Assembly (NCBI GenBank): GCA_021737145.1
Contig: JAIPEN010000008.1
Span: forward strand, 1-64,000
Direction of reading: 5' to 3'
Length of the DNA stretch: 64,000 nucleotides
Origin: Desulfarculaceae bacterium
Lineage (GTDB): Bacteria > Desulfobacterota > Desulfarculia > Desulfarculales > Desulfarculaceae
The translations under genes and the position numbers were made by a program. Of this stretch, positions 53,774 through 59,193 are shown in pieces. Position 1 is the stretch's first letter. The number at the start of each line of letters is the position of its first letter. A model generated the notes under the pieces. It had not been told where the DNA came from. It saw only the letters and a list, made by a program, of their open reading frames with translations, and searched no databases.

Positions 53774-54121
53774 ATGAGCTCGGACAAGGACACCGTGGTC
53801 ATCATCTGGTCCAGCCGCGACCGGGAAGTGGCCAAGAACATGGTATTTATGTACGCCAAGAACTCGCGCCTCAAGGGCTGGTGGCCCAAGGTGCGCCTGG
53901 TGGTGTGGGGGCCCTCGGCCGCGCTCATCGCCGAGGACGCCGAGTTGCAGGCCGAGCTGGAAGAGGCCCGCCAGGCGGGAGTGGAGCTCTTGGCCTGCCG
54001 GGCCTGCGCCGACCGCTACGGGGTCGCCGAGCGCCTGGAGTCACTGGGCATCGAGGTGATCTACATGGGCCAGCCGCTTACCGAATATTTGCAAAGCGGC
54101 CTGCCGGTGCTAACTTTTTAG
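53774..54121 (+). CDS. DsrE family protein
   Basis: The 115-residue protein has the DsrE fold pattern: VVIIWSSRDREVAKNMVFMYA at the start, VRLVVWGPSAALIAED, and GVELLACRACADRYGV with two cysteines, the first a candidate sulfur-carrier position. DsrE-family proteins carry or transfer sulfur, or serve as small accessory proteins in redox metabolism. The gene has a GGGGAG ribosome binding site. It precedes the LUD-domain gene by 43 bp and may be co-transcribed with it. Confidence 0.85.
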   Translation: MSSDKDTVVIIWSSRDREVAKNMVFMYAKNSRLKGWWPKVRLVVWGPSAALIAEDAELQAELEEARQAGVELLACRACADRYGVAERLESLGIEVIYMGQPLTEYLQSGLPVLTF

Positions 54122-54163
54122 GGACAATCCTTATAACTTTGCCATCAGAACCAGGGAGAGAAC

Positions 54164-54808
54164 ATGGACACGCATCAGCAGGCCTGGAACGAAAAGATAG
54201 CCGCCGGCATCATCGAGTGGCTGGAAAAACGCCGCATGGAGGGCAGCTACGCCCCTGACGCCGAGGCGGCCAACGCCAAGGTGCTCGAGTTCATCAAGCC
54301 CGGCCAGGTGGTGTTCCGCTGCGGCTCCATGACCGCCGGCGAGCTGGGCCTGTGGGAGGCCATCGAGGCCGTGGACGGGGTGGAGGTGCTAAACCCCTAC
54401 CAGCCCGGCCTGGAGCCCGCCGAGGGCATGGCCCTTCGCCGCCGTGGCCTCGCCGCTGACGTGATGGTGGCTTCCAGTAACGCCATCACCCTGGACGGCC
54501 GTCTGGTGAACCTGGACGGCATGGGCAACCGGGTGGCGGCCATGACCTTCGGGCCGGCCAAGGTGGTCTTGGTGGTGGGCATGAACAAGGTGGCCCCGGA
54601 CCTGGAAAGCGCCATGGCCCGGGTGAAGCACTACGCCGCGCCGGTGAACGCGGCGCGCATCAACTGCGAGACCCCCTGCACGGTCAACGGCCTGTGCGCC
54701 GACTGTAGGGCGCCCAAGCGCATCTGCAACTTCTGGAGCATCATCGAAGGCTCCATGGTGCCGGGCCGTTTGCACGTGGTGCTGGTAGGCGAAAACCTGG
54801 GCTACTAG
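54164..54808 (+). CDS. LUD domain protein (LutC/YkgG-like)
   Basis: The 214-residue protein has the LUD (DUF162) domain: RRMEGSYAPDAEAANAKVLEFI, FRCGSMTAGELGLWE, VASSNAITLDGRLVNLDGMGNRVA and VLVVGMNKVA. In LutABC the LUD subunit takes part in lactate oxidation; standalone LUD proteins of this length are common in anaerobes and usually lack an assigned function. A C-terminal cysteine cluster (CETPCTVNGLCADCRAPKRIC) with five Cys suggests an iron-sulfur cluster or zinc. AGGGAGAG precedes the ATG. Confidence 0.88.
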   Translation: MDTHQQAWNEKIAAGIIEWLEKRRMEGSYAPDAEAANAKVLEFIKPGQVVFRCGSMTAGELGLWEAIEAVDGVEVLNPYQPGLEPAEGMALRRRGLAADVMVASSNAITLDGRLVNLDGMGNRVAAMTFGPAKVVLVVGMNKVAPDLESAMARVKHYAAPVNAARINCETPCTVNGLCADCRAPKRICNFWSIIEGSMVPGRLHVVLVGENLGY

Positions 54809-54814
54809 ATCCTG

Positions 54815-55504
54815 CTAGGCGGCTGGGGCGGCCATCCGTCCCAGCCGCTCCAATACCAAAGGCAGCCGGGCCTGGCTGGCCGGGTCTGGCGGCAAATGGC
54901 CGGGCAGGGCATCCACGAAACGGCGGTCGTCCAGCAGGGCCCGGAAGCGCTGGGCCAGGAAGCGCCGCACCTCGGTTTCGGCCTGTTCCACCTCGGCGGC
55001 CAGCTCCTCGCGGCCGTCGACCACCGCCACCACGTCCTCCAGGTCATGGCTGGCGGTGTAGTCGTTTTTACCCCGCCCCGCCAGGGCCTCCAGCTTGGTG
55101 GCCAGGAAGCAGGGAGGGGAGATCAGCTTGAGGCTCATCCCTTCCAGCTCATATTCTTGGGCCGAGCGTATCGCGGCCACGTACCAGGGGTTGGTGAAGC
55201 CCAGGGCCTTGATGCCCGAAGGCATCACGTCCACCCGCAGGCCCTCCACCCTCCAGCGGCAGATGACCCCGTCCTCGCTGTCCTCCCTGAAGCCCAAAGC
55301 GCGCAGCTTTTCCTGAAACCGGTGCAACTCGCCCCAGGAGCCGGCCCACACCACCAGATCCACGTCCAGGGTGGGGCGGGGAGGCGCGGCGGCCGGGTCG
55401 GTAGTGAGCAGCTCCAAGACCGACCCACCCACAAAGACCACCTCGCGGCGAAGCTCTCCCAGGCGGCGGGCCACATGGGACAGGTTGTCCAGGTTGCCGC
55501 TCAT
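54815..55504 (-). CDS. Nucleotidyltransferase-like protein (AbiEii/DUF6036-type)
   Basis: The 229-residue protein has a nucleotidyltransferase core: VVFVGGSVLELL followed by TLDVDLVVWAGSW, where the GGS and DxD positions fit metal-dependent NMP transfer, then ATKLEALAGRGKNDYTASHDLEDV, a helix pattern seen in AbiEii and related toxins. I start at ATG 55504, 4 bp after the stop of the HTH gene; an ATG 16 codons upstream would overlap that gene. It is the second gene of a two-gene operon with an HTH protein, the layout of AbiE-like type IV toxin-antitoxin systems. The toxin role is inferred. Confidence 0.75.
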   Translation of the reverse strand: MSGNLDNLSHVARRLGELRREVVFVGGSVLELLTTDPAAAPPRPTLDVDLVVWAGSWGELHRFQEKLRALGFREDSEDGVICRWRVEGLRVDVMPSGIKALGFTNPWYVAAIRSAQEYELEGMSLKLISPPCFLATKLEALAGRGKNDYTASHDLEDVVAVVDGREELAAEVEQAETEVRRFLAQRFRALLDDRRFVDALPGHLPPDPASQARLPLVLERLGRMAAPAA

Positions 55505-55508
55505 TTCA

Positions 55509-56027
55509 CTAACGGCTTCCCCTGATCCACCTGATGAGCCTGTTTCGGGCAAAGCTGTTCTCGCGTTTGCGGCCCAAACGCAGGGCGTCCACCAAAGCCA
55601 AGGCGAGGTAGAGTTGGGAGTCGTTGCGGGCAGCCTCGGGAGCGGATTTGTACAAAGGTGAAAAGCTCATGCCCCTTGCATCTCCTTCAGCCCAAGGCCA
55701 GACGTAACTCTCCTCCGGATTTGGAGGAAATTTATCTAAAAAAGCCGGATGGCTGTGGGCGGTAGGCATCCCTCGAGTTATGCGGCCTATCTCGGCGGGA
55801 AAAGAGTACTTCACCCCGTGGATCAGAAACTCCTCCACACTATCCAAGATAGGCCGCCGCAGTTCCTGGGAGAAAAGCCGGGAATCCGTGGCTCGGGTCA
55901 CGGAGGCATGGACCTGGGAGGGGCTTAGGCCCAGCGAATGGGATATCTCGGCGTAGGTCCAGTAATCACCTGGCTGAAGCACCAGCTTCAGCAACACCAT
56001 TATGTCTTGCGGCAACAACATGATCAT
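55509..56027 (-). CDS. HTH protein paired with nucleotidyltransferase
   Basis: The 172-residue protein begins with a winged-helix-like domain (MVLLKLVLQPGDYWTYAEIS, then LGLSPSQVHASVTRATDS), followed by a region with FSFPAEIGRITRGMPTAHS-like sequence (YSFPAEIGRITRG) that resembles the C-terminal part of AbiEi-type or similar antitoxins. It precedes the nucleotidyltransferase gene and probably represses the operon. Repeats of ATTCTA, one pair forming a 17-bp palindrome, lie directly at its start codon. Met3 is an alternative start. No ribosome binding site is obvious, so the mRNA may be leaderless. Confidence 0.7.
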   Translation of the reverse strand: MIMLLPQDIMVLLKLVLQPGDYWTYAEISHSLGLSPSQVHASVTRATDSRLFSQELRRPILDSVEEFLIHGVKYSFPAEIGRITRGMPTAHSHPAFLDKFPPNPEESYVWPWAEGDARGMSFSPLYKSAPEAARNDSQLYLALALVDALRLGRKRENSFARNRLIRWIRGSR

Positions 56028-56032
56028 TCTAT

Positions 56033-56049
56033 ATTCTAGATTCTAGAAT
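56033..56049 (-). promoter_or_regulatory. Palindromic operator at start of HTH gene
   Basis: ATTCTAGA-T-TCTAGAAT is a perfect 8-bp inverted repeat with one central base, 6 bp upstream of the HTH gene's start codon. ATTCTA also occurs three times with a 7-bp period (56026, 56033, 56040). It is a likely autoregulatory site. Confidence 0.65.
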
Positions 56050-56147
56050 AATGCAATATGTTTTTCGCCTGGCTATCCGCCACCGGTTTGCTCCGGCTCA
56101 CTTATCGCGATACATTATTAAATAGACTCTCACCCATCGGAGGCCCC

Positions 56148-56771
56148 ATGCCTGAACCGCTGACCGTCGAGGTTTTCTCGGACTACATCTGACCCTGGTG
56201 CTACTTCTGTACCGGGCGTATAGAACGGTTGCAGGCCGAGGAGGGGGTGGCCATCAAGTGGGTGGCCTTTCCCCTGCATCCCGAAACTCCGCCCCAGGGC
56301 CAGACCCTGGAGCAGCTCTTCGCCGGCTCGGGCAAGGACATCCCGGCCATGATGGAGCGCCTGAGGGCCGCGGCCAACGCCGAGGGCCTGCCCCTGGGCA
56401 ACCGCAGCATGACCTACAACAGCCGCCGCTCCCAGGAGTTGGCCAAGTGGGCCGAAGAGCAGGGGGCTGGCCCCGCCTTTCACGCCGCCGCCTTCAGGGC
56501 CTATTTTGCCGATGGCCAGAACCTCTGGGAGTCCGATGTGTTGGCCGGGCTGGCCGTCAAGGCGGGCCTGGACGGACAAAAGGCCATTGAGGTTGTGGAA
56601 TCGGGGGCTTACGCCGAGGCGGTGGACGCGGACTGGGCCTATGCCCGCTCCCTGGGGGTCAGCGCGGTGCCCACCTTCGCGGCCGGAGGCCGGGGCTTGG
56701 TGGGGGCCCAGCCTTATCCCGAGCTCAAGCGCCTGGTCCAGGCCGCCCGCGACGGAGGCATCTTCCTCTAA
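56148..56771 (+). CDS. FrnE/DsbA-like thiol oxidoreductase, selenoprotein (Sec at codon 15)
   Basis: The reading frame from ATG 56148 (GGAGG 4 nt upstream) to TAA 56771 contains one in-frame TGA at 56190-56192 and is otherwise open for 207 codons. Translated with Sec it begins MPEPLTVEVFSDYI-U-PWCYFC, so the TGA replaces the first cysteine of the CPWC active site of FrnE/DsbA-like proteins; C18 is the second active residue. The rest fits the family: KWVAFPLHPETP, the helical insert, and the cis-proline motif GVSAVPTF. A hairpin at 56205-56225 is a likely SECIS. The enzyme would be a cytoplasmic or peripheral disulfide/thiol oxidoreductase, as no signal peptide is visible. A simple nonsense mutation is possible, but the position and hairpin argue against it. 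Confidence 0.88.
56205..56225 (+). promoter_or_regulatory. Candidate bacterial SECIS hairpin
   Basis: TTCTGTAC and GTATAGAA form an 8-bp stem (one G-U pair) with a 5-nt loop CGGGC. The stem starts 12 nt after the in-frame TGA and the loop lies 20-24 nt after it. Bacterial SECIS elements lie inside the coding region right after UGA, with guanines in the apical loop, which matches. Confidence 0.75.
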
Positions 56772-56898
56772 AAGTTGTTTGGGATCTCCTTCTTAATGAG
56801 AATATAGAGATAGGGAATATGGCGAATATCTTTTTTCTTGCATATATTAATATTGTCATATAAAAATAGTAGAAAATTAAGATTTGGGAGAGGGGTTG

Positions 56899-57213
56899 AT
56901 GGACGAAGCATTTCTCAGCGAGGCGGCCGAGATGCTCAAGGTGATGGGACATCCCCTTCGCATACGCATCGCGCATTGCCTGGAGCCGGGTGAACTCAAC
57001 GTGGGCGACATCAGCCAGGCCATCGGGGCCACCCAATCGGCCACCAGCCAGCATCTCAAGGCCATGCGCATGCGGGGCCTGCTGGACGCCCGCCGCGACG
57101 GCGCCTGCATGTACTACCGCATCGCCCGGCCCGAGGTTTACAAGATAATCCAGTGCGTCCGCGAGAGCGCGGCCCGCGCCCAAGATGGCAACCAGGTGGT
57201 GGGCGGCCACTGA
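56899..57213 (+). CDS. ArsR family winged-helix regulator
   Basis: The 104-residue protein has the ArsR fold: LKVMGHPLRIRIAHCLEPGELNV, then ISQAIGATQSATSQHLKAM and the wing LDARRDGACMYYRI. Cysteines lie at the end of the third helix (IAHC), in the wing (GAC) and in the last helix (IIQC). Such cysteines occur in thiol- or persulfide-sensing relatives (BigR/SqrR) as well as in metal sensors; the ligand here is not known. I choose ATG 56899 with GAGAGGGG upstream. It is followed by a DsrE-family gene, which supports a role in sulfur sensing. Confidence 0.85.
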   Translation: MDEAFLSEAAEMLKVMGHPLRIRIAHCLEPGELNVGDISQAIGATQSATSQHLKAMRMRGLLDARRDGACMYYRIARPEVYKIIQCVRESAARAQDGNQVVGGH

Positions 57214-57241
57214 GCCGCCTACGCGAGGGGAGGCAGCTAAC

Positions 57242-57784
57242 ATGGATCAGGAGACCCAGGCATACATAGACCAGGCGGTGGAAAAGGCAGTGGGCTCGGG
57301 GCTGGAAGCGGCTCTGAAGAAAAACTCCAAGGCGGCGATCATCGCCTCCAAGGGCAGCCTGGACATGGCCTACCCGCCGCTGATTCTGGCCACCACCTGC
57401 GCGGCCCTGGACATCCCCTGTCAGGTCTTTTTCACCTTCTACGGTCTGGACATCCTCAACAAGAAGAAGAACCAGAGCCTGGGAGTGCCCCCGGTGGGCA
57501 ACCCGGCCATGCCCGTGCCGGTGCCCAACATCATCGGCATGCTGCCGGGCATGACCGCCATGGCCACCTCCATGATGAAGGGCTGGATGGGCAAGGTCGG
57601 CGTGCCCACCATTCCCGAGCTGCTGGAGATGTGCGTTGAGAGCGATATCAGCATCATCGCCTGCCAGATGACCATGGACGTCATGGGGGTCAAGCGCGAA
57701 GAGCTCATCGACGACATCGAGCTGGGCGGCGCGGCCACCTTCTTGAACTACGCCACCGGCTGCAACATCACCCTGTTCGTCTAA
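57242..57784 (+). CDS. DsrE/DsrF-like family protein (DsrE2 type)
   Basis: The 180-residue protein matches the longer DsrE/F/DrsH-like family: AAIIASKGSLDMAYPPLILATTCAALDI at the start of the fold, VFFTFYGLDIL, and SIIACQMTMDVMGV, in which the cysteine is the usual sulfur-carrier residue. A Pro/Met-rich middle segment (VPPVGNPAMPVPVPNIIGMLPGM) is typical and may contact membranes or partners. DsrE2 proteins transfer sulfur in cytoplasmic sulfur oxidation or persulfide handling. It is co-transcribed with the ArsR gene 28 bp upstream. Confidence 0.88.
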   Translation: MDQETQAYIDQAVEKAVGSGLEAALKKNSKAAIIASKGSLDMAYPPLILATTCAALDIPCQVFFTFYGLDILNKKKNQSLGVPPVGNPAMPVPVPNIIGMLPGMTAMATSMMKGWMGKVGVPTIPELLEMCVESDISIIACQMTMDVMGVKREELIDDIELGGAATFLNYATGCNITLFV

Positions 57785-57792
57785 GTCTCCTA

Positions 57793-57820
57793 CGGGCGGC
57801 CCGCCGTTTTGGGCCGCCCG
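57793..57820 (+). terminator. Hairpin after dsrE2-like gene
   Basis: CGGGCGGCCC and GGGCCGCCCG form a perfect 10-bp stem with an 8-nt loop, 8 bp after the stop codon. No T-run follows, so it may be an imperfect terminator. Confidence 0.6.
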
Positions 57821-57936
57821 CCAAAGCAAAAACAAGGGCCCGGCGGCTAGGCCGGGTTCGGGGAGCCGGAGGGGGTCACCAGAGCGGTTCCTGTAAGTCG
57901 AGTTAACTCATGGGAGTAGTTCGGGAAGGAGTCGTC

Positions 57937-59193
57937 ATGAAAAAGGTTTTGGGAGCCCTCTTGGCCATGGCCCTGGTGATGGCCGCGCCTGGCCTGGCCC
58001 TGGCCACCAACGGCATGAACATGATCGGCACCGGCGCGGTGTCTTCGGGCATGGGCGGGGCCGACGTGGCCGTGCCCGCAGGGTGCACCGCCATCGCCGG
58101 CAACCCGGCCCAGTTGGCCACCACCTGCAACCGGGTGGTGAGCGTGGGCGGGGCCCTTTTGAATCCCCAGATGGATGTAACCATGCCCGGCCAGAGCGGG
58201 GTGGACAACGAGTTCCAGCTCTTCCCCCTGCCCTTTGCCGGTTATGCCCAGCGCATCGGCACCAGCCGCTGGTCCTGGGGCGTGGGCATCTTCGCCCAGG
58301 GCGGCATGGGCGTGGACTTCCAGAACGTGAAGAACTTCAGCGGCGCCGACGACAGCCTGTACTCCCAGGTGGCCTTCATGCGCCTGGCCCCCACCGTGGC
58401 CTACAACGTGACCAACCACCTGACCCTGGGCGTGACCGCCTTTGCCGGCTACGCCACCATTGACTACGACTTCTTCCCCAACGGGGTGCAGGGCCAGAAC
58501 GTCACCGGCCTGAGCTCCTTCACCATCGCCGGCCGCTTCGGGGCCAACTACCAGATCAACGACCAATGGTCCGTGGGCGCCACCTACACCAGCGAGAGCT
58601 CCCTGGACTTCGACGACGGCGAGATGCGCTTCAACTTCGGTCCCGGCCTGGGCAAGGTGACCTACCGCGACGCCAAGATGGACAACTTCACCTGGCCCCG
58701 CCAGGTGGAGTTCGGGGTTAGCTTCCGGCCCACCACCAAGTGGCTGCTGGCCTTTGACGTGAGCTGGGTCAACTGGGCCGCGGCCATCCAGACCGTCACC
58801 GTGACCGCCTCCAACCCGTCCACTCCGGTGCCCGCGGGCTACGAGAACCTGAGCGTGCCCTTTATCATGGACTGGAAAGACCAGTGGGTCTTCGCCCTGG
58901 GCGCCCAGTACGAGATCAACGACATGTGGACCGTGCGCGGCGGCTACAACTACGGCCAGAACCCGGTGCCCGACAACACCCTGAACCCCCTGTTCCCGGC
59001 CATCGTGGAGCACCACCTCACCGCCGGCTTCACCTTCACCTATGGCGACTGGGACTTCGACTTCGCCCTGGAGCACGCCTTCAGCAACAGCCAGACCAAC
59101 ACCGGCGCGCCCAGCCCCACCAACCCCTTCGCTGGCACCGAGGTGAGCCACTACCAGAACACGGCGCACTTCATGGTCAGCTGGCGCTTTTAA
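57937..59193 (+). CDS. OmpP1/FadL family outer membrane protein
   Basis: The 418-residue protein has a signal peptide (LGALLAMALVMAAPGLALA) and the FadL N-terminal hatch signature TNGMNMIGTGAVSSGMGGADVA, followed by a beta-barrel sequence with alternating hydrophobic residues and ending in MVSWRF, the terminal Phe typical of outer membrane proteins. FadL-family channels take up hydrophobic compounds such as fatty acids or aromatics. I start at ATG 57937, where GGAAGGA is upstream. It is followed by two genes for thioredoxin-fold proteins. Confidence 0.92.
   Translation: MKKVLGALLAMALVMAAPGLALATNGMNMIGTGAVSSGMGGADVAVPAGCTAIAGNPAQLATTCNRVVSVGGALLNPQMDVTMPGQSGVDNEFQLFPLPFAGYAQRIGTSRWSWGVGIFAQGGMGVDFQNVKNFSGADDSLYSQVAFMRLAPTVAYNVTNHLTLGVTAFAGYATIDYDFFPNGVQGQNVTGLSSFTIAGRFGANYQINDQWSVGATYTSESSLDFDDGEMRFNFGPGLGKVTYRDAKMDNFTWPRQVEFGVSFRPTTKWLLAFDVSWVNWAAAIQTVTVTASNPSTPVPAGYENLSVPFIMDWKDQWVFALGAQYEINDMWTVRGGYNYGQNPVPDNTLNPLFPAIVEHHLTAGFTFTYGDWDFDFALEHAFSNSQTNTGAPSPTNPFAGTEVSHYQNTAHFMVSWRF

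Follow-up and report, generated by a model that had tools for sequence, protein, structure and literature searches.

A FrnE/DsbA-like gene in a Desulfarculaceae genome with an in-frame TGA that is very probably read as selenocysteine at the redox site

Does a TGA triplet at codon 15 of a disulfide oxidoreductase gene end the reading frame, or is it translated as selenocysteine (Sec)? This question is raised by a FrnE/DsbA-like gene in the window, i.e., the whole stretch of 64,000 nucleotides analyzed here, which covers positions 1-64000 of one contig of a Desulfarculaceae genome assembly (4.03 Mb, 29 contigs). The gene very probably reads the stop codon as selenocysteine, which would lie in the active centre of an enzyme acting on disulfides. 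Judged from the comparison with related genomes, the TGA was shown to be conserved where homologues have Cys or Sec, with a covarying hairpin behind it and with the Sec machinery encoded in the genome. Taken as a whole, the explanation of a FrnE-branch selenoprotein within the DsbA family, with Sec insertion and a thiol-disulfide mechanism as proposed below, is highly likely.

Reading frame and conservation of the in-frame TGA

The selenoprotein gene (56148-56771, plus strand), encoding a FrnE/DsbA-like (PF01323) disulfide oxidoreductase, consists of 207 codons plus the TAA at 56769-56771. A Shine-Dalgarno-like sequence, ATCGGAGG (56136-56143), is located upstream of the ATG at 56148, with GGAGG shortly 5' of this start codon. 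A sequence-only reading of the locus had described a frame that is open for 207 codons with a single in-frame TGA, and this is what the sequence holds: translation with TGA as Sec yields 207 residues without a further stop. It had also expected gene callers to retain a fragment starting at 56229 that lacks the active site, and the standard ORF list indeed gives 180 aa from a TTG at that position. The TGA (56190-56192) encodes residue 15, i.e., position 1 of a UPWC redox site, for which the resolving cysteine is Cys18 (TGC, 56199-56201); every row of alignments A2 (23) and A3 (32) has this cysteine. Cys18 and Cys21 are the sole cysteines besides Sec15. Equally invariant in both alignments is Pro175 (56670-56672) within SAVPTF, which we take to be the cis-proline expected next to this site; in thioredoxin folds the cis-proline packs on the redox site. 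As the redox site starts as early as residue 15 and inspection by eye revealed no signal peptide, the protein is probably cytoplasmic.

Within the taxonomic family, 20 genomes were searched and a match was obtained in 13, the window's own genome among them. Exactly one TGA is present in the window gene and in all 12 other full-length members (13/13), aligned at codon 15 in those of the 12 that were re-read. A 14th place in the family is a weak and partial match (31% identity, residues 61-172) carrying TAG in place of TGA, and seven of the 20 genomes, including one assembled as a single contig (G001), have no match. A degenerate frame in close relatives, which had been named as an observation that would speak against selenocysteine, was not found among the seven other genomes of the same genus searched, all of which show one TGA in an intact frame.

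Moreover, a phylum sample of 395 genomes gave a match in 112. The 95 better-scoring places from the family and phylum searches together with the window make up 96, with two places each from G245 and G053; residue 15 can be aligned in 94 of them, all except L080 and L111. The codon at this position is TGA in 76 of the aligned places (window included), TGC or TGT in 17 and TCC in one, so that the proposed alignment of homologues places Cys or Sec at residue 15 in 93/94 and Ser in the remaining one. The in-frame UGA is aligned with the conserved Cys/Sec of homologues, as is characteristic of bacterial selenoproteins, and the sequence is conserved on both of its sides (A2). Among the named genomes, the best 80 of at least 556 confirmed loci comprise 79 with TGA and one with TGC, a share that is a biased frequency because these loci are ranked by similarity to the window's Sec protein and overlap in part with the 94 places (e.g., L147-L150 and L183). 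Desulfobacteria, Desulfobulbia and Alpha-, Beta- and Gammaproteobacteria are among the record titles of these 80 loci, many of which are metagenome bins with uncertain names.

The downstream hairpin and the selenocysteine machinery

The hairpin that had been described 12 nt after the TGA is present as TTCTGTAC-CGGGC-GTATAGAA at 56205-56225 (plus strand), with an 8-bp stem (56205-56212/56218-56225; one of the eight pairs is G.U) and the loop CGGGC at 56213-56217. The available part of a 2026 review gives for the bacterial SECIS (bSECIS) an apical loop of 3-9 nt, an upper stem of 4-16 bp, a G within the first two loop positions and a distance of 16-37 nt from UGA to loop (PMC13188914). The upper stem-loop of the window lies within these limits, having a loop of 5 nt with G in second place, followed by a further G, a stem of 8 bp and a spacing of 20 nt. 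The energy limit of -7.5 kcal/mol or lower is reached by the 45 nt following the UGA (-14.0 kcal/mol), a value that depends on length as the bare hairpin has -6.9 kcal/mol. Folded freely, these 45 nt adopt the SECIS stem plus two stems below it as their minimum. When 33, 36 or 40 nt following the UGA are folded, the minimum-energy structure is another hairpin and not the SECIS stem, and for 45 nt starting with the UGA itself the best fold is also another hairpin (-14.2 kcal/mol). Pairs of the competing helix are present in 84.3% of cells, and this helix covaries (score 0.194 vs 0.128 in shuffles, 0/500 as high), more weakly than the SECIS helix and with both-sided changes at 3/10 pairs; the decoding ribosome should block it. 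No Rfam family matched the window at gathering thresholds, which is uninformative for this SECIS.

The hairpin of the single sequence is weak evidence alone. The bare 29-nt stretch folds into the hairpin with an energy equalled by 24 of 200 shuffles, the hairpins of four relatives are matched by one to 10 of 200 shuffles, and random synonymous codons produce all eight pairs in 0.7% (codon usage of the gene) to 2.8% (uniform usage) of 100,000 draws each. Single-sequence folding, which by itself is not significant, was therefore rejected as proof of a SECIS, and the covariation of the helix was examined instead. In an alignment of the window and the other Sec members, 76 in all and giving 75 distinct rows, pairing of the 8-bp helix holds in 86.5% of 600 cells. 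Double changes number 107, and none of 500 shuffles (0.194 +/- 0.016) reached the covariation score of 0.490. Sliding the helix partner by one to three columns lowers the score to only 0.065 to 0.258, and RNAalifold recovered five of the eight pairs unprompted. Two of the five covariation measures are less striking, i.e., how many pairs show double changes (reached by 61/500 shuffles) and how many further pair types occur (24/500). Seven or eight of the eight pairs are formed in 56/76 Sec and 0/18 non-Sec sequences, and at least six in 51/54 close Sec members, 16/22 more distant Sec members and 1/18 non-Sec sequences, leaving six of the 22 distant ones with fewer than six. Furthermore, in codons 20-27, which span the hairpin and one codon beyond, identical amino acids are identically encoded within the genus in 45/48 cases compared to 564/813 downstream (Fisher p 1.1e-4). 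As far as sequence comparison can tell, TGA conservation and helix covariation are beyond chance.

The genome also encodes the machinery for Sec that had been suggested as a check: selA (E 6.0e-159), selB (402 bits), selD and a tRNA-SeC with anticodon TCA, i.e., the selA, selB, selC and selD set of bacteria that make selenoproteins. SelD is itself a selenoprotein in this genome (L013, C19:137897-138823, minus strand), with its in-frame TGA at residue 11 of the matched stretch. SelB was searched in 80 of the 93 genomes that supplied places, with a cut-off of 242.25 bits, and was found over this cut-off in 72/80, comprising 58/63 genomes with a Sec form and 14/17 with a Cys form; these proportions led us to reject SelB presence as a discriminator between the two forms. 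Four of the five Sec-form genomes without SelB over the cut-off are incomplete (76-85%): G007 (82% complete) carries a fragment of SelB at a contig end that scores just under the cut-off (237.8 bits), and the others are G343, G028 and G129. The fifth, G211 (L063), is rated 100% complete, and an assembly gap is the sole explanation offered for the absence of SelB over the cut-off.

Two readings would leave the gene without selenocysteine. The TGA could be a true stop in a degraded or truncated gene with the 180-aa product from TTG 56229, the only form that appears in the standard ORF list. This fragment would lose the whole active site, and one TGA is present in each of the 12 other full-length members of the family, with conserved sequence on both of its sides and a covarying hairpin, so that the probability of a truncated gene is close to nil. 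A sequencing error would likewise turn an ordinary FrnE into an apparent selenoprotein, for which the true codon would be TGC or TGT; the codons differ by a single base, and Cys forms do occur in the phylum (17/94 aligned places). An error in the window is extremely improbable given that all seven other genomes of the genus searched carry one TGA, and hairpins with seven or eight of eight pairs, as in the window, accompany the TGA codon specifically (56/76 vs none of the 18 non-TGA sequences). The selenocysteine reading, which had been proposed from the window alone, is borne out by the conservation of the TGA, the covariation of the hairpin and the presence of the Sec machinery.

Family, fold and proposed reaction

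The assignment to the FrnE/DsbA-like proteins made from the sequence alone is supported by a Pfam DSBA match (PF01323, E 4.8e-37, 128 bits vs a cut-off of 25.6), by FrnE chains in the PDB matched at E 3.9e-25 in a sequence search and by a FrnE-like predicted fold. Residue 15 is aligned with the first Cys of the CPWC of these PDB chains, in agreement with the position originally ascribed to the TGA. An AlphaFold model, obtained from 32 sequences with Cys replacing Sec, has a mean pLDDT of 94.4 and a pTM of 0.89. Ranked by E-value, its top six hits in the PDB comprise five Deinococcus radiodurans FrnE (drFrnE) entries and SCO1869 (TMq 0.86-0.90), with drFrnE as top fold match (TMq 0.90), and YjbH, 2-hydroxychromene-2-carboxylate (HCCA) isomerase and kappa glutathione S-transferase (GST) rank below these. 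The FrnE fold together with UXXC in place of CXXC near the N-terminus places the protein in the FrnE subfamily, and the DSBA domain with UPWC places it in the DsbA-like selenoprotein family (COG2761/PF01323, UxxC); COG2761 is presumably FrnE. Compared to drFrnE (DR_0659; 5cnw, 5cp1 and 5xwh), which has the same fold and CPWC at the same place, the window protein has Sec for the first Cys, shows 31-33% identity and, with all cysteines counted, does not contain the C-terminal CX4C.

From established knowledge on bacterial selenoproteins, SelB and Sec-tRNA would almost certainly bind the hairpin, and Sec would be inserted at the UGA at 56190. The product would likely be a cytoplasmic thiol-disulfide enzyme, in which the Sec15 selenolate would attack a substrate disulfide and Cys18 would resolve the mixed selenosulfide. 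This proposal of Sec15 attack, Cys18 resolution and net reduction or isomerization is based on the FrnE fold, the biochemistry of drFrnE and the presence of only Cys18 and Cys21 besides Sec15. For drFrnE, the part of PMC8945050 drawn on here reports disulfide isomerase and insulin reduction activity and a mutant that is sensitive to both cadmium and diamide. A C-terminal CX4C, proposed there to regenerate the site, occurs in many but not all FrnE proteins, and FrnE proteins are predicted to be cytoplasmic. By analogy, it is somewhat probable that the window protein acts mainly as a disulfide reductase/isomerase in the reducing cytoplasm, being re-reduced by thioredoxin or a low-molecular-weight thiol and protecting against oxidative or metal-induced thiol stress like drFrnE. 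The Sec form would be expected to be more reactive than a Cys enzyme.

A selenoprotein of this fold might also catalyze a different reaction, as a kappa-GST- or HCCA-isomerase-like enzyme or as a disulfide-forming oxidase. The predicted structure does match those of HCCA isomerase and kappa GST (TMq 0.69-0.77). The FrnE entries and SCO1869 fit better, both in structure and, for FrnE, in sequence; HCCA isomerase and kappa GST use a single Ser, and neither redox residue of the window protein varies among the 23 and 32 aligned proteins, which makes a different reaction improbable.

The type of enzyme is already known, and the window gene adds a new member and not a new kind of system. Nine DsbA-like UXXC selenoproteins are listed under COG2761 among Sargasso Sea sequences in the part seen of Zhang et al., 2005 (PMC1088965), excerpts of PMC1794560 name Anaeromyxobacter dehalogenans, Desulfovibrio desulfuricans and Desulfotomaculum reducens as carriers of the family, and a table taken from PMC5029168 gives 41 and 45 for it, in columns read as organisms and genes. 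The family appears under PF01323 with UxxC in the portions available of PMC13188914, where a "DsbA-like protein form 1" is found, and of PMC9312934. Compared by such partial descriptions, the window protein shares with these DsbA-like selenoproteins UxxC, the Pfam DSBA domain and a bSECIS downstream of the UGA. It differs in coming from a Desulfarculia-type genome and in having UPWCYFC.

Eukaryotic selenoproteins use a different kind of SECIS. In the sections consulted, SelenoDB 2.0 (PMC3965025) has FrnE (DsbA) among its named selenoprotein families, and a Sec-containing FrnE oxidoreductase of green algae is mentioned in PMC6627142, which repeats the disulfide isomerase role; compared by description, the likeness is that of a FrnE (DsbA) selenoprotein by name, and these are eukaryotic, unlike the window protein. 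A thioredoxin fold and UxxC are also shared with the Rcas_1661/DsbG-like thioredoxin-like (seleno)lipoprotein NF041057, as described in an extract of PMC13188914. Membership in NF041057 was rejected, as the window protein matches at residues 91-199 only and reaches 44.4 bits vs a cut-off of 190. No NCBIfam 20.0 model scored over its cut-off on the window protein, suggesting that automatic annotation may truncate it. Among the titles of a literature search that covered mainly open papers, none concerned an assayed FrnE selenoprotein.

Relatives, gene neighbourhood and biological meaning

A quick tree was calculated from 92 rows, leaving out the fragment L072, L110 (no active-site Cys/Sec) and the unaligned L080 and L111. 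The window is placed in a clade of 56 rows (SH-aLRT 99) comprising 54 Sec and two Cys proteins, and the whole tree needs seven Sec/Cys changes, at least four of which are forced by the starred branches. The two Cys proteins are nested within the Sec clade beside L059, with a support of only 86, and this position hints that they may have lost Sec. dN/dS after the hairpin is 0.33-0.70 in comparison with the seven same-genus genomes; on these values the gene is under purifying selection that is not extreme, the 0.70 against one relative being not very low. Sec forms also occur in two other FrnE-like groups, L074-L101 and L104-L109, which are about 25-35% identical to the window protein. In the former the Sec forms have UPFC or UPYC, and most of them keep the SECIS register with different letters; in the latter they have UPWC after DVL or DYL.

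For the gene neighbourhood, 125 loci were surveyed by clustering similar ORFs. The window contains at 53774-59193 a genus-level block of a DsrE-like gene, LUD, the selenoprotein, an ArsR/SmtB regulator, a DsrE2-like sulfur carrier and a FadL-like porin, possibly a sulfur or redox-stress neighbourhood. The order DsrE-like, LUD, Sec gene, ArsR, DsrE2-like is found in L112, L114, L116 and L147 of the genus, all but L147 also having the FadL-like gene. No neighbour family is shared by more than 11/125 loci, the one reaching 11 occurring on both strands at varying distance, and apart from the genus block, a small downstream block recurs in five or six other loci. The neighbourhood was rejected as a clue to function, the genus order being too narrow and a widespread neighbour family being absent from the survey. 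In the window, the LUD gene and the selenoprotein gene are separated by a stretch (54815-56027, minus strand) that holds an AbiEii-like nucleotidyltransferase gene (PF08843, E 3e-7) and a 172-aa ORF that has no Pfam match. In five relatives of the same genus (L112, L114, L116, L147 and L148) LUD ends 177-187 nt ahead of the Sec codon, and about 1.2 kb therefore seems to have been inserted in the window lineage, possibly as a toxin-antitoxin-like pair.

Reading the TGA as Sec recovers an active site that is lost in the standard ORF list. It adds to a thinly documented bacterial selenoprotein family with a strongly covarying SECIS and mostly Sec in the sampled clade (54/56 rows), for which the alignments and the hairpin could seed a new NCBIfam model. 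Moreover, the presence of Sec and Cys forms in one clade offers a natural test of the benefit of selenium to a disulfide enzyme. Tentatively, and with less than even confidence, Sec may be the default of cytoplasmic FrnE in the window clade and the Cys forms derived losses. If this is true, a selenium-dependent FrnE would be a core cytoplasmic disulfide reductase of sulfate reducers and of many uncultured Proteobacteria, one that would often be truncated in annotation and would not depend on a C-terminal CX4C for its recycling.
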